Shown here in pieces: positions 523 through 12,319 of a DNA stretch of 44,919 nt. Origin of the DNA: Spirochaetota bacterium (lineage in GTDB: Bacteria; Spirochaetota; Spirochaetia; Treponematales; UBA12059); contig JAHIWF010000237.1 of assembly GCA_018815555.1 (NCBI GenBank), positions 1-44,919 of the forward strand, given 5' to 3'. A program made the position numbers and the translations under genes. The notes below the pieces were generated by a model that saw nothing but the letters and a program-made list of their open reading frames with translations, was not told the origin of the DNA and searched no databases. Each line of letters opens with the position of its first letter. The first letter of the stretch is position 1.

Positions 523-2124
523 GTGGCCGAACCGTATAAAATAATCCTGGTAGATGACGAGGACGAGGTGCGCGGCCGTATTTCGTCCAAGATATCGGCC
601 GAAAGCGGTTTTCAGGTGGTCGGCACAGCCGGCAATGGCTACGACGCGCTTGAACTTATCGAGCAGCACTCGCCCCAGGTGGTGCTGACTGATATAAAGA
701 TGCCCTATATCGATGGTCTGGAACTGGCTTCAATAATACGGCGCGACCATCCGACGGTGCGCATCGGCTTCATCACCGGTTATGACGAGTTTGATTACGC
801 CCGCGAGGCCATCGAGCTGAACGTGCGCAGTTATCTTACCAAGCCGCTCACCCAAGAGGACATCTCGCGTTTCCTGCACAAGCTGAAGTTGGAGCTGGAT
901 ACCGAGATACAGGAAAATTACAACCGCGAGCAAATCCAGCAGCGCTATCAGCAGAGCCTGCCGCTTATTATAGAAAACTACTTCGTTTCGCTGCTGGCTT
1001 CCGGTGTGGCTACCAGCCAGTCCGATGTTGAGCAGTTGCGCCAGCATGGCGTTACCCTGGACGACAGCCCCTATGTTCTGGTGTCCGTGTATGTGGAACG
1101 ACTGCCCGAGCATTGGGGGGTAATCGAGTATCAGAAGCTGAAAATGGCGGTGCGCAACCGGCTGAATGCTCTGCTAAAGCTGGAAAATCTTGACCACTAT
1201 CATTTCAGTTTCCACGAGAGCCTGGTTTTCATCATCAAGCAGCGCAGTCAGTCCAACAGCCAGCAGCTGGACGTGCTCCTGAACCGCATGGTGCAGACTA
1301 CCAAGCATTTTCTGGCGGTACCGGTAGACATCGGCGTAAGCGATCGGCACAGCGATTTTCGGCAGCTGGCAGCGGCCTACGAGGAGGCCGACCGGGCTCT
1401 CTCGTCCAGCCGCTTTTCGTCGATTAGCCCCATTACCTATTACAATCAGCAGTCCAGCAGCGAAGTACGGCGACTGCGCTTTAAAGAAGAAGATGCCCGC
1501 ACCTTCGAGCATGCCCTGCGCTTCAGCCCGGATGCTGAACTGAAAGCCTTGCTGGATGATTTGAGGCAGAATGCCTCCGCCGCCGCTACGGACGGTGGGA
1601 ATTTCGACCTGTACATTCTTAACCTGGCTTCACTGCTGGCTAACTATGCCGCTGCCGGCGATGTCGATCTGGATGCCCTGCTGGGTGACAATTTACTGAC
1701 TCTATTGCAGAAACTGCGCGGGGTTGACCAGCTTTTCGATTGGGTATATTCGCTGGTGCTGCGTATCCGCTCGCAGGGCATGGCTTCAAAGGCCAGCAAC
1801 TCGCATAAACTACTGGCAGCGGCCAAAACCGCCATACGCACCAGATATGCTGATCCGGATCTTACAATGGAAGATTTGTGTGACCAGCTGGCCATCAGTC
1901 CGTCGTATCTCGGGCAGCTGTTCAAAAAATACGAGGACAGCAGTTTTGTGCGTTTTCTTACCGCCGTGCGCATGGAGAAAGCCAAAGAACTGCTGGCTAC
2001 GACCGGGGACCGGATAGTTGAACTGGCCGTGCAGTGCGGCTACCGGGATGTGTACTATTTTAGTCACAGTTTTAAAAAATACCACGGGCTGTCCCCGAAG
2101 AAATATCGTGAAGAACATCCTTAA
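523..2124 (+). CDS. YesN-type response regulator with AraC DNA-binding domain
   Basis: This cytoplasmic transcription regulator is activated by phosphotransfer from the kinase encoded next to it. The protein is 533 aa. Its N-terminal receiver domain (about 5-125) has acidic pocket D11/D12, phospho-acceptor D57 in LTDIKMP and conserved K107 in YLTKPL. A long linker of about 300 aa follows, then a C-terminal AraC-type double helix-turn-helix (about 430-533) ending in the typical VQCGYRDVYYFSHSFKKYHG segment. The GTG at 523 is chosen because GGAGG at 514-518 precedes it and the receiver begins at once; the frame stays open to 487 but adds only a non-conserved stretch. The kinase gene overlaps its end by 17 bp, so the two are co-translated. 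Targets are probably the downstream mgl genes (inference from position and from the XylFII-LytS-YesN precedent). Confidence 0.9.
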   Translation: MAEPYKIILVDDEDEVRGRISSKISAESGFQVVGTAGNGYDALELIEQHSPQVVLTDIKMPYIDGLELASIIRRDHPTVRIGFITGYDEFDYAREAIELNVRSYLTKPLTQEDISRFLHKLKLELDTEIQENYNREQIQQRYQQSLPLIIENYFVSLLASGVATSQSDVEQLRQHGVTLDDSPYVLVSVYVERLPEHWGVIEYQKLKMAVRNRLNALLKLENLDHYHFSFHESLVFIIKQRSQSNSQQLDVLLNRMVQTTKHFLAVPVDIGVSDRHSDFRQLAAAYEEADRALSSSRFSSISPITYYNQQSSSEVRRLRFKEEDARTFEHALRFSPDAELKALLDDLRQNASAAATDGGNFDLYILNLASLLANYAAAGDVDLDALLGDNLLTLLQKLRGVDQLFDWVYSLVLRIRSQGMASKASNSHKLLAAAKTAIRTRYADPDLTMEDLCDQLAISPSYLGQLFKKYEDSSFVRFLTAVRMEKAKELLATTGDRIVELAVQCGYRDVYYFSHSFKKYHGLSPKKYREEHP

Positions 2125-3844
2125 ATCATCCGTTTCGATCGGATTTAATATTTTTATAGCTACTCTTGTTATCGTGTTTATCGCAATTTTGGTAACAACG
2201 CTGGTTTTTGTACTGATTTTTTCCGGTACGCTCGACAATCTGGTGGCAACCCAATCGCGCGAGATCAATAAACAGATTGTCATGAATTTCGAAAGTTATA
2301 TTAACAGCGTAATGGAAACCGCAAACTACATCCATCTGGCTTCGTTTAACATGGATATCAGCCAGGACGGCGGAGTGCTTTCGGATCTGTATCAGGTTAA
2401 CGCCAGCATGAAGAAAGACGTGGTGGCTATTTTTCTGTTTGATTCTAAGGGTAACAAGCTGATCGGGCCGGAGCTGGATGTCAGCCAGCTGCGCAATATT
2501 GCCCAGCGCGGCTGGTTCCGTTCAGCGTTGGCTGTTTCCGAAATATTCCACTTTAATGCCTGGCAGCAAAGCAGTCTGGCCGACAATCGTGAAGAACAGG
2601 TTATTCCGGTATCCAAGTCTTTCGAATACTTGTATGCCGGCAAGGTGGAAACCGGCATCCTCTTAATCGAACTGAACAACCAGCTGCTTACCGATCTGGC
2701 GCGCAAAACCAATCTCGGAGAGCTCGGACATTTATTGATCCTCGATGAAGCCGGCGGTTTGTTGTATTCCTCCGAGCCGGCTCCGTATCGGCTTACTGCC
2801 CAGAGTATGGCCATTGCCTCCCGGCTGTTTTTAGGCGGGCAACGGGCGATGTACGGCAATATCGACATGTTCCTGAATGTGAATACTTTGGGGCAGACCC
2901 GCTGGCGTATTGTTACCGTCAGTAACGCTAACGAAATCAACGAGGCTTTGCGCCAGCTGGTGCTGGTGCTGGTGGCTGTCGTAGCGGTAATTGTTCTGCT
3001 GAGCGCATTTTTCTCCGGCCTTATCTCGCTGCGGCTTACCCTGCCTATCAGCCAGCTGAAATCAGCCATGTTAAAAATCGAGGACGGTGATTTTTCTGGT
3101 CCTATCCAGGTGTCCGGACAGAAAGAGATCGTACTGCTGGCGCATTCATTTAACAGTATGGTGCAGAAGGTACAGGAACTGATGGATAATCTGGTAGAGG
3201 AGCAGCACGAGAAACGCAAAACTGAATTGCGCGCCCTGCAGAACCAGATTAATCCGCATTTTCTGTACAATACCCTGGATTCGATAGTCTGGCTGGCCGA
3301 ACATGAACGCAACCGCGATGTAATAAATACCGTTGTGTCGCTGGCCCGTTTTTTCAGAATTGCCATCTCCAAGGGCGAAGCTTTTATAACGGTTGCCGAA
3401 GAGCTTGCTCATGTTCAGAACTATCTGAATATCCAGACTATTCGTTATGTTAATAAATTTAATTGCAGTTTTGATATGCCGGACGAACTTAAGAATTACA
3501 AGGTGATGAAGCTGATCCTGCAGCCATTGGTAGAAAACGCCATTTACCATGGGGTAGGTGACGAAGGCGGCGATATTGATGTAGTTGTGCGTAAAGAAGG
3601 CGACAGTCTGATTTTCAGGGTGTCCAATACCGGTTACGGGATCAGCGATAGCAAAATTCAGGAAATGTATCAGATGATGCGCGGAGATTCCGAACGCAGC
3701 AGTGTGGGTATCCGTAATGTATACCAGCGCCTGAATCTGTATTATGGCGAAAGAGCCCAGATGCTGATTTCCAGTGTTCCGGACGAGAGTACTACAGTTA
3801 CCCTGATTATTCCTACCGTTCCTGTCCGAGAGGAGAATAACTGA
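2108..3844 (+). CDS. YesM/LytS-type sensor histidine kinase
   Basis: This 578-aa inner-membrane kinase phosphorylates the preceding response regulator. Visible order: TM1 (about 12-38), an extracytoplasmic sensor region (about 40-282) rich in predicted helices and strands, TM2 (about 283-305), HAMP (about 306-360), the His_kinase motif LQNQINPHFLYNTLDS with phospho-acceptor H384, and a HATPase domain with N-box PLVENAIYHG, later GYGI and a C-terminal SSVGIRNVYQRL. The GTG at 2108 is preferred because TM1 follows directly; it overlaps the regulator's end by 17 bp. The frame is open to an ATG at 2018, but that would add 30 residues with no family resemblance. The lipoprotein gene follows after 1 nt, so the three genes form one unit. 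In related clostridial systems a sugar-binding lipoprotein contacts the sensor region of such a kinase. Confidence 0.92.
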   Translation: MKNILKSSVSIGFNIFIATLVIVFIAILVTTLVFVLIFSGTLDNLVATQSREINKQIVMNFESYINSVMETANYIHLASFNMDISQDGGVLSDLYQVNASMKKDVVAIFLFDSKGNKLIGPELDVSQLRNIAQRGWFRSALAVSEIFHFNAWQQSSLADNREEQVIPVSKSFEYLYAGKVETGILLIELNNQLLTDLARKTNLGELGHLLILDEAGGLLYSSEPAPYRLTAQSMAIASRLFLGGQRAMYGNIDMFLNVNTLGQTRWRIVTVSNANEINEALRQLVLVLVAVVAVIVLLSAFFSGLISLRLTLPISQLKSAMLKIEDGDFSGPIQVSGQKEIVLLAHSFNSMVQKVQELMDNLVEEQHEKRKTELRALQNQINPHFLYNTLDSIVWLAEHERNRDVINTVVSLARFFRIAISKGEAFITVAEELAHVQNYLNIQTIRYVNKFNCSFDMPDELKNYKVMKLILQPLVENAIYHGVGDEGGDIDVVVRKEGDSLIFRVSNTGYGISDSKIQEMYQMMRGDSERSSVGIRNVYQRLNLYYGERAQMLISSVPDESTTVTLIIPTVPVREENN

Positions 3845-3845
3845 A

Positions 3846-4874
3846 ATGATACATAAAAAGTGGCTGCGTATATGTATGGCCTGCCTGCTGTTGTGTGCGC
3901 TGGTTTCGTGCAGGCCGGCGAAGCCGGAGCTTGGCCTGTTTCTCTATAATGAGGCCGATCCGTATATTCTGGAATTTGGCCGGCAGATTATCGAGGTTGC
4001 CGGGGCTTCTTTTATGGTTCACAAATTTGATGCGGCCAATTCACAGCCGATTCAAAACGAACAGATTGAAAGCTGGCTGCGTGCGGATACCGGGGTTGTT
4101 ATCGTAAATCCGGTAGACCGGCTTGGGGCGTATGCCGTCATAAACCGCTTGCGCCAACTGGATGTTCCGGTAATATTTTTTAACCGTGAGCCCCTGCCGG
4201 CGGATATGGCCCTATGGGACGAGGTGTGGTACGTTGGCGCTCAGGCTGCCCAGTCGGGGCGGATGCAGGCCGAGTTGGTAATGAACCTGTTCGGTAATAA
4301 TCCTGAGCAGCTGAATGAGTATGACCGTAATGGCGATGGCAGAATCCAGACGGTACTGCTTAAGGGCGAACAGGGGCACCAGGATGCTGAAATACGTACG
4401 GCCGAGGGTTTGAAAGCTTTCGAGGAAAAGGGCTTCGTTATCGACGTACTGGCGCTGGAGGTGGCCAACTGGAACCAGGCCCAGGCCTACGATACCATCG
4501 GCAGGGTGCTTCGCGATCATCAGGATGCGATGGAGCTGGTGATTTCCAACAACGACGCCATGGCCCTCGGTGCCATCAACCGCCTGCGTCAGGCAGGGTT
4601 TTTCAAAGATAACAATGGCAACGGCCAGGTTGACCGCGCAGACAGCAGCTGGCTGCCGGTTGTGGGCATAGACGGTCTGCGCGAAGCCGAGGAGGCAATT
4701 GCCGACGGCTTTTTATATGGCACGGTCAAGAATGATTCCTACAGCATGGCGATTGCCATAGCCGAGCTTGCCGAGCTGATAATGGGTACCAGAGACAGTC
4801 TGAGTGTGGCACATACCCTTATGGATGGTCGCTATATTTGGATCGATTATTTGCCTTTTGTATCGCAACAATGA
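3846..4874 (+). CDS. MglB-like sugar-binding lipoprotein, probable sensor accessory protein
   Basis: This 342-aa periplasmic binding protein has a lipoprotein signal: a hydrophobic stretch ending LVSC, with lipidated C22. It is a paralogue of the MglB encoded next to it. By eye alignment with E. coli MglB it keeps the galactose/glucose contact residues: Y34, D38, Y40 (Phe in MglB), N113, H178, D180, R184, W209, N236, D276 and N296. It also keeps the calcium-loop pattern DRNGDGRIQ (160-168). Its start is 1 nt after the kinase stop, with GGAG 10 nt upstream. A dedicated binding protein translated with the YesM/YesN pair, separate from the transporter's own MglB, suggests it presents ligand to the kinase, as XylFII does with LytS/YesN. 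It could instead be a second transport binding protein feeding MglA/MglC. Confidence 0.88.
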   Translation: MIHKKWLRICMACLLLCALVSCRPAKPELGLFLYNEADPYILEFGRQIIEVAGASFMVHKFDAANSQPIQNEQIESWLRADTGVVIVNPVDRLGAYAVINRLRQLDVPVIFFNREPLPADMALWDEVWYVGAQAAQSGRMQAELVMNLFGNNPEQLNEYDRNGDGRIQTVLLKGEQGHQDAEIRTAEGLKAFEEKGFVIDVLALEVANWNQAQAYDTIGRVLRDHQDAMELVISNNDAMALGAINRLRQAGFFKDNNGNGQVDRADSSWLPVVGIDGLREAEEAIADGFLYGTVKNDSYSMAIAIAELAELIMGTRDSLSVAHTLMDGRYIWIDYLPFVSQQ

Positions 4875-4928
4875 TCGAAAGAATCGGCAAGAGTGCGAAA
4901 TTTTATAAATAGTCCGTCGATTTTTACA

Positions 4929-4957
4929 TTGTTGGCTTCCCAAAGCGCCCCTATGAT
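4929..4957 (+). promoter_or_regulatory. Candidate promoter for mglBAC
   Basis: TTGTTG (4929-4934) and TATGAT (4952-4957) are separated by 17 bp. The -10 matches the consensus in 5 of 6 positions, the -35 only in 3. Transcription would begin near 4964, giving a leader of about 46 nt. It lies in the 135-bp gap between the sensor lipoprotein and mglB. A weak -35 fits a promoter needing an activator such as the upstream AraC-type regulator (inference). Confidence 0.4.
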
Positions 4958-5009
4958 GATGACAACGAGAGCACCGTTGGGTGTTCCCATCCATGTCAAG
5001 GAGTTTTAT

Positions 5010-6029
5010 ATGAAGAGAAGCATCGTATTGCTCGCTCTGCTGGCCCTGCTTGCAACCAGCTTGTTTGCTGCCGGCCAGAAAGATGGCGGAGAGATCGTCA
5101 TCGGCGCTAACATTTACAGTTTTGCCGATAATTTCATGAACGGTGTCATGAAGCCCGAGCTCGAGCGCTATGCCGCCTCCAAAGGTGCCCGCATTGAAAT
5201 CGTGGACTCAGAAGGCCAGCAGGCCAAGCTGAATGATCAGGTCGACGTGTTCATTACCCGCAAGGTAAGTGTCCTGGCCATCAACCTGGTTGACCCGGCT
5301 TCTGCTTCTGCCATCATTGCCAAGGCTAAAGCTGCCGGCATTCCGCTTATTTTGTTCAATAAAGAACCCACCGAGCGCGGTGTCATGGCTTCCTACGACA
5401 AAGTATGGTATGTAGGTACCAACTCTGCCGAATCCGGTATCATCCAGGGCCAGATGATGGTTGCTGATTGGCGTGCCAATCCCTCCTGGGATAAAAATGG
5501 CGACGGTGTTGTTCAGTATGTTATGCTGAAGGGCGAGCCCGGACATCCGGACGCCGAAGCCCGCACTCTTGAATCCGTAAAAGCTTTTACCGATGCCGGT
5601 ATCAAAGTTGAGCAGCTGGCTCTCGAAGCCGATCCCAACTGGTCTACCCAGCACGGTAATGACAAAATGGCTGCCTGGCTTACTTCCGCTTTTGCTTCAC
5701 GCATCGAGCTGGTAATCTGTAACAACGATGGTATGGCTTTTGGTGCTATCAATGCCCTTAAGGCTGCTAAGGTTAAGTTGCCGATCTATAGTGTAGACGC
5801 TCTTGATCAGGCTCTTACTCACATTGCTGATGGCGAGCTGAATGGTACCGTACTTAATGACGGTGTTAATCAGAGCCGCGCTACTCTCGATCTGGCTATC
5901 AATGCCGCCATGGGAAAAGCCAATGTTGTTGAAGGTACCCAATGGACCATCACAACTGACGGTACCAAGGCTGTTCGCGTTCCCTATCTCCCGGTAACTC
6001 CCAAGAACTACCAGGAATTCCGTAAATAA
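5010..6029 (+). CDS. mglB: Galactose/glucose-binding periplasmic protein MglB
   Basis: This 339-aa binding protein delivers D-galactose or D-glucose to the MglA/MglC importer. The N-terminal signal peptide (about 1-21, MKRSIVLLALLALLATSLFA) has no lipobox Cys, so it is probably a soluble periplasmic protein. Residues matching the E. coli sugar site are Y36, D40, F42, N117, H179, D181, R185, W211, N239, D263 and N283. The calcium loop is DKNGDGVVQ (161-169). The ATG at 5010 is chosen because AAGGAG lies just upstream (4998-5003) and the signal peptide starts there; the frame is open further to 4893 but that would bury the signal peptide. A strong 12-bp stem-loop follows the stop, as expected for a binding protein made in excess of its transporter. 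Confidence 0.95.
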   Translation: MKRSIVLLALLALLATSLFAAGQKDGGEIVIGANIYSFADNFMNGVMKPELERYAASKGARIEIVDSEGQQAKLNDQVDVFITRKVSVLAINLVDPASASAIIAKAKAAGIPLILFNKEPTERGVMASYDKVWYVGTNSAESGIIQGQMMVADWRANPSWDKNGDGVVQYVMLKGEPGHPDAEARTLESVKAFTDAGIKVEQLALEADPNWSTQHGNDKMAAWLTSAFASRIELVICNNDGMAFGAINALKAAKVKLPIYSVDALDQALTHIADGELNGTVLNDGVNQSRATLDLAINAAMGKANVVEGTQWTITTDGTKAVRVPYLPVTPKNYQEFRK

Positions 6030-6099: not shown

Positions 6100-7620
6100 A
6101 TGCAAGAATATCTGTTGAGCATGAAGGGAATATGCAAATCATTTTCCGGAGTGCAGGTGCTGAAAGACGTTCATCTTGAGGTCAAGCCCGGCACGGTTCA
6201 TTCGCTTATGGGAGAAAACGGAGCCGGTAAATCCACGTTGATGAAATGTCTTTTTGGAATCTACCGTCAGGATGCCGGTGAGTTTTTTCTTGATGGTCAG
6301 GCTTTCAATTTTACCGATCCCAAGCATGCCTTGGAGAACGGTGTGTCCATGGTACATCAGGAGCTGAACCAGGTTATCCAGCGTACCATTTCGGACAATA
6401 TCTGGCTGGGGCGCTATCCTGTAAAACGTTTTTTTGTAGACGAGAAAAAAATGCGCGCCGATACACTGGCGCTATTCGCAAAACTGAACATACATCTGGA
6501 TCCTGACACCATGCTGCATACCTTGTCGGTTTCGCAGCGGCAGATGGTGGAGATTGCCAAGGCTGTTTCCTATGATGCCAAAGTAATCGTGCTCGACGAA
6601 CCGACCTCTTCACTGACCGATAAAGAAGTGGATATGTTGTTCGACATTATCAAGGTGCTGAAAGGCCAGGGTGTCGGAGTTATTTATATATCGCATAAGA
6701 TGGACGAGATTTTCCGCATTTCCGATTACGTTACAGTACTGCGCGACGGCAAATACATCGGCACCGATTCTATCCAGAACCTCACTATCGAGCATGTGGT
6801 AAACATGATGGTTGGTCGGGACCTGGAAGATCGTTTTCCGCCTAAAACCAATGAGCCGGGATCGGTTCATATGTCGGTGCGCAATGTAAGTACCAAGTAT
6901 GAGCCTCAGGTAACTGATGTAAACTTCGACTTGCGCCGCGGCGAGATTCTGGGTATCGCCGGTCTGGTAGGAGCTGGCAGAACCGAACTGCTGGAGGCAA
7001 TATTCGGAACGCGCACACTGCTTTCCGGAGAAGTGCAGATAGACGGAAAGTTGATAAAAAATAACAATCCGCATGTCGCCATAAAAAACCGCTTTGCCTA
7101 CCTTACCGAGGAAAGGCGCGAGACCGGTATCTATCCGCTGTCTGACATTACTTTTAACACCACTATTGCCAATGTTGCCGCCTATCGCAACAAGCTCGGA
7201 TTATTGCGCAAAGATATGATGGAAAAAGATACTGACCAGCAGATTAAGGCTATGCGTATCAAGACTCCCGGGAAACGCGAGCCTATCCGCTCGCTTTCCG
7301 GCGGTAATCAGCAGAAGGTGATTATCGGCCGGTGGCTGCTCACCAATCCTGATATCCTGCTGCTGGACGAACCTACCCGTGGTATTGACGTAGGCGCAAA
7401 ATACGAGATTTACCAGCTGATAATAAAACTTGCCCAGAGTGGCAGGTCGGTTATTGTAGTCTCTTCGGAAATGCCCGAGCTGATCGGCATAACCAACCGC
7501 ATTCTGGTCATGAGTAACGGCCGGATGGCCGGTATTGTCGATACTGACAAGACTACACAGACCGAGATTTTTCATTTGTCCACGAAGTACCTGAATAATT
7601 CAAGGGAGGCTGAAGTATGA
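6100..7620 (+). CDS. mglA: Galactose/methyl-galactoside import ATPase MglA
   Basis: This 506-aa cytoplasmic ATPase energises sugar import; the length equals that of E. coli MglA. It has two ABC domains. The first has Walker A GENGAGKST (38-46), Q-loop VHQE, signature LSVSQRQMVEIA and Walker B VIVLDEPTSSL. The second has the degenerate P-loop GLVGAGRTE typical of this sugar family, signature LSGGNQQKVIIG and Walker B DILLLDEPTRGID. The ATG at 6100 is used because GGAGGGGG (6087-6094) is its ribosome site. An earlier ATG at 6085 would put the ribosome site inside the gene. The stop overlaps the start of mglC by 4 bp (ATGA), so the two are coupled. Confidence 0.95.
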   Translation: MQEYLLSMKGICKSFSGVQVLKDVHLEVKPGTVHSLMGENGAGKSTLMKCLFGIYRQDAGEFFLDGQAFNFTDPKHALENGVSMVHQELNQVIQRTISDNIWLGRYPVKRFFVDEKKMRADTLALFAKLNIHLDPDTMLHTLSVSQRQMVEIAKAVSYDAKVIVLDEPTSSLTDKEVDMLFDIIKVLKGQGVGVIYISHKMDEIFRISDYVTVLRDGKYIGTDSIQNLTIEHVVNMMVGRDLEDRFPPKTNEPGSVHMSVRNVSTKYEPQVTDVNFDLRRGEILGIAGLVGAGRTELLEAIFGTRTLLSGEVQIDGKLIKNNNPHVAIKNRFAYLTEERRETGIYPLSDITFNTTIANVAAYRNKLGLLRKDMMEKDTDQQIKAMRIKTPGKREPIRSLSGGNQQKVIIGRWLLTNPDILLLDEPTRGIDVGAKYEIYQLIIKLAQSGRSVIVVSSEMPELIGITNRILVMSNGRMAGIVDTDKTTQTEIFHLSTKYLNNSREAEV

Positions 7621-8645
7621 CCGCGTTAAGTATCGGCAAGATACGTGCCATGAGCAAAGAACAATGGAAGGAACTGTTTGTCAAGAACGCGATCTACATC
7701 GTTATTCTGGCGATCATTGCCTTTATCATCATCAGTGAGCCGGCATTTTTGTCTTTCACTGTGTTTCGCAATATTCTTACCCAAAGTGCGGTGCGTCTGA
7801 TTCTGGCCTTCGGCGTCGGTGGTATCATCATCACGCAGGGCACTGATTTATCGCTCGGCCGCTCTGTTGGCTTTGCCGCGGTTATTGCCGGCTCACTGCT
7901 GCAGCGGGCTGATTATGCCTCGCGCTTTTATCCGGATCTGGTAGCTTTGCCACTGGTTGTACCGCTGCTGCTGGCCTGTGCGGTTAGCGCTTTTTTCAGT
8001 GCGATTAACGGCTGGGTGGTGGCCAAGTTTAAGATCCATCCCTTCCTGGCAACGCTTGGTATGATGATTACTCTGTACGGTGTTCTTTCAATCTACTTTG
8101 CCTCCGGTGCTCCGGGGCCGCAGCCTATTGGCGGTTTTGATACCCGCTATACTGAATTTGTAATCGGTTCCACTTTCGGCATCCCCCATCTGGTCATTTA
8201 TGCCGCCATCGTAAGTGTTATTGTCTGGGTGTTGTGGAATAAGACCACGTTCGGCAAGAATCTGTATGCGGTCGGCGGAAACCCGGAAGCCGCCAAAGTA
8301 TCCGGTGTAAATGTTTCCAAGACCATTATCCTGGTGTACATTATGGCCGGTGTGCTGTACGGCATCGGCGGTTTTCTGGAAGCTGCCCGTATCGGCAGCG
8401 CCAACAATGGAACCGGTTTCGGGTATGAGCTGGATGCGATTGCGGCCTGTGTAGTCGGCGGTATTTCTTTCTCCGGCGGTATAGGAAAAGTGTCCGGCGC
8501 GATAACTGGTGTGCTGATGTTTACCATCATCAGTTACGGTATGACCTTTATCGGAATGGATCAATATTATCAATATATAATCAAAGGGGCCATCATCGTG
8601 GCGGCTGTCGCCCTGGATGCCAAAAAATACATCAAGAAGACCTGA
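7617..8645 (+). CDS. mglC: Galactose/methyl-galactoside permease MglC
   Basis: This 342-aa inner-membrane permease of the ribose/xylose/galactose (BPD_transp_2) family works as the pore partner of MglA. About eight to ten hydrophobic segments are visible, beginning with IYIVILAIIAFIIIS. The conserved loop LYAVGGNPEAAKVSGVNV is the family's cytoplasmic coupling region. The segment IITQGTDLSLGRSVG is also typical (usual form: GIDLSVG). Length is close to the E. coli protein (336 aa). The start overlaps the mglA stop (ATGA). The VOC gene follows after 3 nt and may share the transcript. Confidence 0.94.
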   Translation: MTALSIGKIRAMSKEQWKELFVKNAIYIVILAIIAFIIISEPAFLSFTVFRNILTQSAVRLILAFGVGGIIITQGTDLSLGRSVGFAAVIAGSLLQRADYASRFYPDLVALPLVVPLLLACAVSAFFSAINGWVVAKFKIHPFLATLGMMITLYGVLSIYFASGAPGPQPIGGFDTRYTEFVIGSTFGIPHLVIYAAIVSVIVWVLWNKTTFGKNLYAVGGNPEAAKVSGVNVSKTIILVYIMAGVLYGIGGFLEAARIGSANNGTGFGYELDAIAACVVGGISFSGGIGKVSGAITGVLMFTIISYGMTFIGMDQYYQYIIKGAIIVAAVALDAKKYIKKT

Positions 8646-11101: not shown

Positions 11102-12319
11102 GTGTTGGATTTTTTGAAGCAGGGCATGGAATTTTTTAAGCACCCCGTTCAAGTAGCCGGTATCGTTTTCAGTTTTAGCCTGCTGCAGTTTATGCTCGAA
11201 TTTTTTCTGCCCGCTGCTGGCTTGCTGTTCTTTGCAAGATTGGTAAAAAAGGCTTTTGCTCGGTGGGAAAGCGGCAGTACGCCCCATAGCCCTGGCCTGG
11301 TCAAATTTTTCAAAATTGCAAATAAATTATTTCATGTTTCTTTGATTTTGCTGATTCTTGTGCTTTTAGGTCGCCTGCTGGGTGCGCAAATAATGACCAC
11401 ACTGCAGGATGTCGGCCGCTTATTGTCCCGGCCGATTATGGAGGCCGGAGATACAAAAATAACAATTGTAACTGTGCTTTTGTCTATTCCTCTGGTGTAC
11501 CTGGCCGGAAAAATCGGCGGGTTTGTTAAAAAGTATTCTCGTGAAACATTTTTGTCCAGTGTAGATGCGGACCGCCAAGGATCTATCTCGACTATGCTGC
11601 AATATCTGGGTGGCGCTCTGGTCCTGCTTGTAGGGCTCTCGATTCTAGGAGTCGATCTCAGCAGCCTGACTGTGCTTTTTGGAATACTGGGTATAGGTAT
11701 CGGTTTTGGTTTGCAGAATCAGATTGCCAATATGTTTGCCGGCTTGCTGATTCTTGTAACCAGGCCGGTAAAAGAAGGTGATCGTATACAGTGTGGTTCG
11801 TACGAGGGAACAGTCAGCAGTATTCGCTTGATGAATACAGTGCTGACTACCCTTACTAATGAAGCTATTATCATACCGAATAGTTTGCTGGTTAACCGGG
11901 AAATCCTTAATTACTCGTATGATACACCATCAGTCGTTATCATTAATTCTGTGCAGGTGTCGTATGGCTCGGATCTTGATTTGGTTATCCGCTTGTTACG
12001 GACTGTCCCTGCACGTAACCCCTTTGCTGTTTTCGAAGCTGATCACTCAGCAACAGTTGCCAGTTTTGATGATTCAGGAATAACGCTAGAGTTGCGTACC
12101 TGGATCCGTTCGGTCTTTGATCGTTTGCCAGCCCGATCCTGGACCAATCTGGAGATCTGGCGCGAGTTCCGGAAAAACGCTATCGAGATTCCTTTCCCAC
12201 AGCTCGACCTGCATATGGATAAAGGCTGCTTGAAACCGCCTTCCGCTGAAGTCGACATAGCTAAGGCAGATAGCGCTGAAGCTGACAATAAGGAGTTCGG
12301 TGATGGCCCTGCTCGGTAA
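11102..12319 (+). CDS. MscS-family mechanosensitive channel
   Basis: This 405-aa inner-membrane channel should release solutes when membrane tension rises. Hydrophobic segments lie at about 15-45, 75-95, 115-140 and 155-180. The pore helix and first beta segment are visible as GIGIGFGLQNQIANMFAGLLIL, followed by RPVKEGDRI, the usual MscS signature. The beta domain and alpha/beta C-terminal domain follow (IIIPNSLLVNREILNYS). The last 30 residues are acidic, Ala-rich and not conserved. The GTG start has AAGGAG 5 nt upstream. The aminotransferase gene overlaps its end by 17 bp, so the three genes from 10355 to 13205 probably form one transcript. Confidence 0.92.
   Translation: MLDFLKQGMEFFKHPVQVAGIVFSFSLLQFMLEFFLPAAGLLFFARLVKKAFARWESGSTPHSPGLVKFFKIANKLFHVSLILLILVLLGRLLGAQIMTTLQDVGRLLSRPIMEAGDTKITIVTVLLSIPLVYLAGKIGGFVKKYSRETFLSSVDADRQGSISTMLQYLGGALVLLVGLSILGVDLSSLTVLFGILGIGIGFGLQNQIANMFAGLLILVTRPVKEGDRIQCGSYEGTVSSIRLMNTVLTTLTNEAIIIPNSLLVNREILNYSYDTPSVVIINSVQVSYGSDLDLVIRLLRTVPARNPFAVFEADHSATVASFDDSGITLELRTWIRSVFDRLPARSWTNLEIWREFRKNAIEIPFPQLDLHMDKGCLKPPSAEVDIAKADSAEADNKEFGDGPAR

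Follow-up and report, generated by a model that had tools for sequence, protein, structure and literature searches.

The DNA analysed here, a window of 44,919 nucleotides that constitutes contig JAHIWF010000237.1 of a Spirochaetota bacterium, carries on its forward strand a series of six genes in which a two-component system and a lipid-anchored binding protein precede a sugar importer of the Mgl type. The first gene (523-2124, + strand, GTG start) encodes a YesN-type response regulator (RR) composed of Response_reg, GGDEF_2-like linker and HTH_18 (AraC-type helix-turn-helix) domains of Pfam. The second (2108-3844, +) encodes a YesM-type sensor histidine kinase (HK) in which two transmembrane segments bracket a periplasmic dCache domain (dCache_1, below the Pfam gathering score) and are followed by HAMP, His_kinase and HATPase_c domains. 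The catalytic residues of both proteins are intact, namely the receiver D57 and K107 of RR and H384 of HK. The GTG at 2108 is the sole in-frame start of HK near its overlap with RR, which is accordingly 17 bp long. The third gene (3846-4874, +) begins 1 nt past the HK stop codon and encodes a lipobox lipoprotein (C22) that is a paralogue of MglB. This arrangement had been described in the original prediction and agrees exactly with the ORF calls; the gene order is repeated in dozens of genomes, which places it beyond chance. The importer genes lie downstream and comprise mglB, encoding the transport binding protein (5010-6029, +; ORF and Pfam), mglA, encoding the ATPase (6100-7620, +; ORF), and mglC, encoding the permease (7617-8645, +; ORF).

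The lipoprotein and the window's MglB share the Pfam domain Peripla_BP_4 and are 38% identical over their matched part; besides MglB, no other close relative of the lipoprotein was found in the window's genome, whose own nearest relative found is Spirochaetes bacterium GWB1_60_80. Against the MglB equivalog NF011924 (cut-off 420) the lipoprotein scores 175.6 bits, and the transport MglB likewise falls under the cut-off, at 365.5. Upstream of RR, at positions 316-442, a near-palindrome of 13-14 nt, GGGGTC(A/T)GACCCC, occurs five times with a spacing of 28-29 bp. The sequence GGGGTCWGACCCC occurs in 126 exact copies in the window's genome, as against 0 for a reversed control pattern, and these copies are clustered, often with a spacing of about 28-29 or 39 bp.

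A regulator-kinase-lipoprotein unit in three phyla

An alignment of eight orthologues of the lipoprotein, compared with 84,980 species genomes, yielded 66 loci. HK lies directly upstream of the lipoprotein gene in all 54 loci where that neighbour is visible, and RR lies upstream of HK in 45/45. In 55 of 56 loci the genes next in line are those of a CUT2-type sugar transporter, the automatic count of 56 having taken in L139, where the next gene encodes a MacB-type ABC protein rather than a sugar transporter. The host organisms belong to Spirochaetota, to Bacillota (Erysipelotrichaceae among others) and to Mycoplasmatota (relatives of Acholeplasma and Anaeroplasma, and Izimaplasma); cultured carriers of the unit include Anaeroplasma bactoclasticum and Petrocella. 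The RR-HK-lipoprotein set thus travels through at least three bacterial phyla; it was expected among spirochaetes and is found there, but it is not limited to them. Nor does the lipoprotein vary independently of the kinase, an outcome that the original prediction had named as fatal to its reading.

Because the lipoprotein had served as the query of this survey, a second search was begun from the kinase. Among Erysipelotrichales, kinases with at least 38% identity to HK over its length adjoin the lipoprotein in 7/7 cases. Where the identity is 29-33%, the position is taken by another binding protein, anchored in the membrane, and mgl-type genes are often still nearby (the neighbour in L184 was not resolved). 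Within the spirochaete order, full-length HK orthologues scoring above 400 bits adjoin the lipoprotein wherever the contig reaches the next gene, and remoter kinases mostly adjoin other binding proteins. Together these patterns indicate that some binding protein occupies this position in most cases and that it changes in step with the kinase. The unit is also kept in five of five held-out genomes.

The association with the importer is looser. The expectation that the unit always precedes mglBAC does not hold, since ten loci of Bacillota and Mycoplasmatota have a ChvE-like transporter instead (ChvE-likeness being tested in two of them). An invariable tie is ruled out as well by the window's own family, in which a different set of binding protein, kinase and regulator can stand before mglBAC. 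In that family, the mglBAC genes of L021, L022, L023 and L026 are preceded by a module composed of a membrane-anchored binding protein, a shorter kinase lacking a dCache hit, a YesN-type regulator and, in some cases, a second binding protein; the same importer is here accompanied by another three-component sensor. Additional sets of kinase, regulator and binding protein, some with binding protein ORFs of more than 600 aa, adjoin CUT2-type transporters in other spirochaete families (L064, L066, L070, L071 and L073), and systems of this kind are common in Spirochaetota.

The lipoprotein, its kinase and their common inheritance

The lipobox cysteine of the lipoprotein, Cys22, is invariant across the eight orthologues. 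Ten residues had been named by eye as MglB sugar contacts, and all ten align with the corresponding positions of an enteric galactose-binding protein (GBP): in a phmmer alignment to Salmonella GBP, with residue offsets counted by hand on the printed alignment, Y34, D38, N113, H178 and D180 correspond to GBP Y10, D14, N91, H152 and D154, and R184, W209, N236, D276 and N296 to GBP R158, W183, N211, D236 and N256. Across the survey, the pocket Y34-D38-[YF]40-N113-H178-D180-R184-[WF]209-N236-D276-N296 is present in every sensor in which these residues are visible except that of L139. This deviating protein is the sole sensor without a sugar transporter behind it, and its locus has no predicted regulator site. 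An AlphaFold2 model of the lipoprotein (pLDDT 84) has members of the glucose/galactose-binding group as its twelve best PDB matches, the top one being 8fxu, a glucose-bound thermophilic protein. Both the sugar-contact residues and the fold therefore place the lipoprotein in the GBP group. At window positions 4608-4643 (lipoprotein residues 255-266) an inserted EF-hand-like loop, DNNGNGQVDRAD, is absent from the transport MglB; most sensors of spirochaetes and many of those of Erysipelotrichaceae have it, and Clostridia-type sensors lack it. It is possible that this loop provides a kinase contact or a second calcium site. Seven further residues, R92, L93, L117, Q176, S234, F253 and G277, are specific to the sensors and are candidates for a predicted interface with the kinase.

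The genes found around the module bear on the identity of the sugar. In L110, galE, galT and galM lie directly upstream; galactokinase-type, galM or galE genes are found around L091, L092, L098, L105, L108 and L127 (in L127 a galactokinase-type gene is downstream), and several Erysipelotrichaceae loci have genes of these three types bordering the module. No gal genes adjoin the module in the window. The window's genome encodes a galactokinase (galK) over its curated cut-off, adjoining a melibiase-type gene; galT was absent from this genome in a search that covered the galT_1 type alone. The pocket, the fold, the Leloir neighbours and the galK-melibiase pair together favour galactose, which is a more likely ligand than glucose alone. 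A quite plausible alternative, to which we nonetheless give less than even weight, is that the sensor is real and responds to a different or broader signal, such as glucose, fucose, arabinose or several sugars as for ChvE, with galactose incidental. Pockets of the GBP type take glucose as well as galactose, and the nearest solved relative is glucose-bound; moreover, in the ten loci with a ChvE-like, multiple-monosaccharide transporter, W209 is replaced by F, a change that the tree traces to no more than one or two events. It is the Leloir genes near the module in several Bacillota and Mycoplasmatota, and galK beside the melibiase-type gene in the window's genome, that weigh against this alternative and for galactose.

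The partner that would read this lipoprotein is a dCache kinase. Residues 2-300 of HK, modelled by AlphaFold2 from 46 sequences (pLDDT 86.5), match dCache sensor domains, and the dCache_1 domain exceeds the Pfam gathering score in the members L108, L110 and L121. A precedent for such a pairing is LuxP-LuxQ of Vibrio, in which the dCache-like (tandem PAS) domain on the periplasmic side of a kinase reads a binding protein of the ribose-binding type, and which makes the pairing of lipoprotein and dCache domain plausible. That system differs in its quorum signal (AI-2), its hybrid kinase and its phosphorelay. Since dCache domains often bind ligands themselves, HK could sense something else too.

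The pattern of inheritance speaks to the division of labour between these proteins. For the 33 loci having all six genes complete, pairwise distances among RR, HK and lipoprotein correlate mutually at 0.93-0.97, and those among transport binding protein, MglA and MglC at 0.92-0.97, whereas the correlation between the two groups is 0.51-0.59. The partial correlation of lipoprotein with HK, given the transport protein, is 0.90, a value reached by 0 of 2000 permutations, and that of lipoprotein with transport protein, given HK, is 0.06 (p 0.19). When MglB-type loci alone are considered, the corresponding values are 0.79 and 0.24. In a maximum-likelihood tree (made by a short search, rooted at its midpoint and containing a few long branches), one branch with a support of 100 parts 55 sensor proteins from 48 transport proteins; a lineage-by-lineage origin of the sensor by local duplication of mglB is ruled out by this tree. 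The sensor evolves with the kinase and not with the transporter, a binding protein having moved from transport to signalling.

These data also bear on whether the lipoprotein might be a second transport binding protein, adding affinity to MglAC, with HK and RR sensing alone through the dCache domain of the kinase. Such a role would suit the identity of the lipoprotein pocket with that of MglB and the usual direct binding of small ligands by dCache domains, the structural neighbours of the HK model being proteins that bind amino acids; in addition, CuaSR lacking its binding protein CuaD kept some response to cellobiose (PMC10384115). We nevertheless regard it as unlikely. The sensors fall in a single clade that contains none of the transport proteins, share their inheritance with HK and RR rather than with the transporter, and still adjoin HK where the transporter has been swapped, and their gene lies between HK and a promoter-like site, that is, inside the kinase operon. 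A signalling role for the lipoprotein is accordingly the reading that we retain.

A predicted regulator site and the proposed circuit

The gap between the lipoprotein gene and mglB, 135 bp in length, contains the sequence ATTTTATAAATAGTCCGTCGATTTTTACATTGTTGG at 4900-4935 (+), a direct repeat with a 21-bp period whose half-sites are TTATA (4903-4907) and TTACA (4924-4928). An unbiased motif search in 42 sensor-transporter gaps returned a 36-bp motif, AttTtAcAAAaa.t..gtagAATaTTaCATTgt, likewise a direct repeat of 21-bp period, with a log-likelihood of 479 as compared with 109-126 in eight shuffled sets. The motif site outscores every other site in its locus in 47 of 51 cases, a count that is partly circular because the motif was trained on the same intergenic regions. 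The held-out tests are free of this circularity: the window's site scores 32.3 bits with the window and its relatives excluded from the model, and in all five genomes outside the model the best site of a 12-14 kb locus falls between lipoprotein and mglB (in three of the five, the mglB ORF as called is too long and includes the site, which precedes the likely start). Across the entire genome of the window, only the site upstream of mglB reaches significance (E 3e-5, the next match having 0.6). Among relatives' genomes the best match is at the sensor-mglB locus in all six with any match, with E <0.001 in four; for a seventh, G343, the motif search reported no match.

The second-best match in the window, at 11306-11341 (about 24 bits), lies within a mechanosensitive-channel-like coding sequence and has an E of 5.7 genome-wide; it was treated as due to chance, and its presence in a coding region indicates that AT-rich chance matches do occur. 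No comparable site was found upstream of the RR gene in the loci scanned. Autoregulation of RR through such a site is thus rejected, and expression of the sensor genes is probably independent of it. Many of the Bacillota and Mycoplasmatota loci (L091-L126) have sequences resembling CcpA cre sites, such as TGAAAGCGGTTACT and TGTAAACGCTTTCT, past the regulator site and ahead of the transport gene, which suggests that predicted catabolite control may be superimposed on the sensor.

By eye, a candidate mglB promoter (4929-4957, +) consists of a -35 element TTGTTG at 4929-4934 (3/6 matches), a 17-nt spacer and a -10 element TATGAT at 4952-4957 (5/6); a scan for the sigma-70 promoter consensus gave nothing over its threshold (9/12). 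The downstream half-site abuts or overlaps the weak -35, and a repeat so placed would look like part of an activator-dependent promoter. The position of the site and its co-occurrence with the module, including its absence from L139, point to RR as the protein that would bind it. That the regulator instead represses mglBAC when sugar is absent appears quite unlikely to us: the overlap of the downstream half-site with the -35 would accommodate repression, yet the YesN/AraC-type regulators of described systems induce (CuaR, PMC10384115), and class II activators of the AraC family usually have their direct repeat placed right before a poor -35. The original proposal that the module switches on mglBAC gains from this analysis a conserved predicted operator at the mglB promoter.

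We consider it probable that the module is a three-component sugar sensor that turns on the neighbouring importer mglBAC. On the outer side of the membrane, the lipid-anchored MglB-like protein would bind a galactose- or glucose-type hexose and signal its loaded state, presumably by direct contact, to the dCache domain of the YesM-type kinase, which would then phosphorylate the YesN-type regulator. The regulator would bind the 21-bp-period direct repeat that precedes and partly covers the -35 of the mglB promoter, where it could recruit RNA polymerase and thereby raise mglBAC expression. As to the origin of the system, we lean slightly towards a single ancestral split that gave rise to an MglB-type sensor lineage associated with one HK-RR pair. 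This would have formed a portable galactose/glucose module with its own 21-bp-period operator, later set before MglB-type or ChvE-type transporters in Spirochaetota, Bacillota and Mycoplasmatota, with W209 of the sensor pocket changing to F where the transporter changed.

The module has three features of such a three-component sensor: a conserved unit, a sensor binding protein distinct from the transport binding protein, and a YesM/YesN pair with its catalytic residues. Systems of this kind are already known. The precedent invoked originally, XylFII-LytS-YesN of Clostridium beijerinckii, similarly has a sensor binding protein apart from that of transport, a LytS/YesM-type kinase and a YesN-type regulator. 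It controls a sugar ABC transporter, whereas here the transporter adjoins the module and its control is inferred, and its ligand is xylose, whereas the sensor here is MglB-like. The periplasmic portion of LytS, the reader of XylFII, is described as a four-helix bundle (PMC9769921). HK has a dCache fold in its place and lies outside the XylFII-LytS subfamily so defined, so that the precedent is sound as to kind and does not extend to the kinase sensor. CuaD-CuaS-CuaR of Ruminiclostridium cellulolyticum, which responds to cellobiose, comprises a lipoprotein sensor, a HAMP kinase with two TM segments and about 265 aa in the periplasm, and a YesN-type regulator that induces a separate transporter operon, the cuaDSR sensor operon being constitutive (PMC10384115). 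The lipoprotein, the two-TM HAMP kinase and the YesN-type regulator are shared with the module here; the disaccharide ligand, the larger mature CuaD (410 residues) and the order cuaD-S-R differ. AraPST of Geobacillus stearothermophilus has two binding proteins, one sensing and one for uptake (as summarised in PMC10384115), and in related strains genes for a binding protein, a kinase and an AraC regulator adjoin a sugar ABC transporter (PMC4428132). The AraPST ligand, arabinose, and the gene order, binding protein-HK-RR, differ from those of the present module. In ChvE-VirA-VirG of Agrobacterium, a binding protein loaded with galactose, glucose or other sugars stimulates the periplasmic domain of the kinase (PMC4086400). 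The resemblance lies in a sugar-loaded binding protein that acts on the periplasmic part of a kinase, and the differences in the class of kinase, in the targets and in ChvE being chromosomally encoded outside any VirA-VirG unit. A single binding protein, ChvE, serves both transport and signalling.

The suggestion that a galactose or glucose version would be a different instance of this logic is therefore borne out in part: ChvE-VirA is already a galactose-responsive pair, but the literature searched, outside which most subscription papers lie, yielded no galactose system composed of a binding protein, YesM and YesN. Nor did the searchable literature yield a description of this galactose-type family, of its occurrence in three phyla or of its operator. 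The module predicts how import of the galactose type would be switched in dozens of mostly uncultured spirochaetes, Bacillota and Mycoplasmatota, and it offers a ligand (for the lipoprotein), a partner (the dCache domain of the kinase) and a DNA site (of 36 bp) as testable predictions. It also provides a clear example of a binding protein that has given up transport for a part in signalling and whose evolution follows the kinase, not the transporter.
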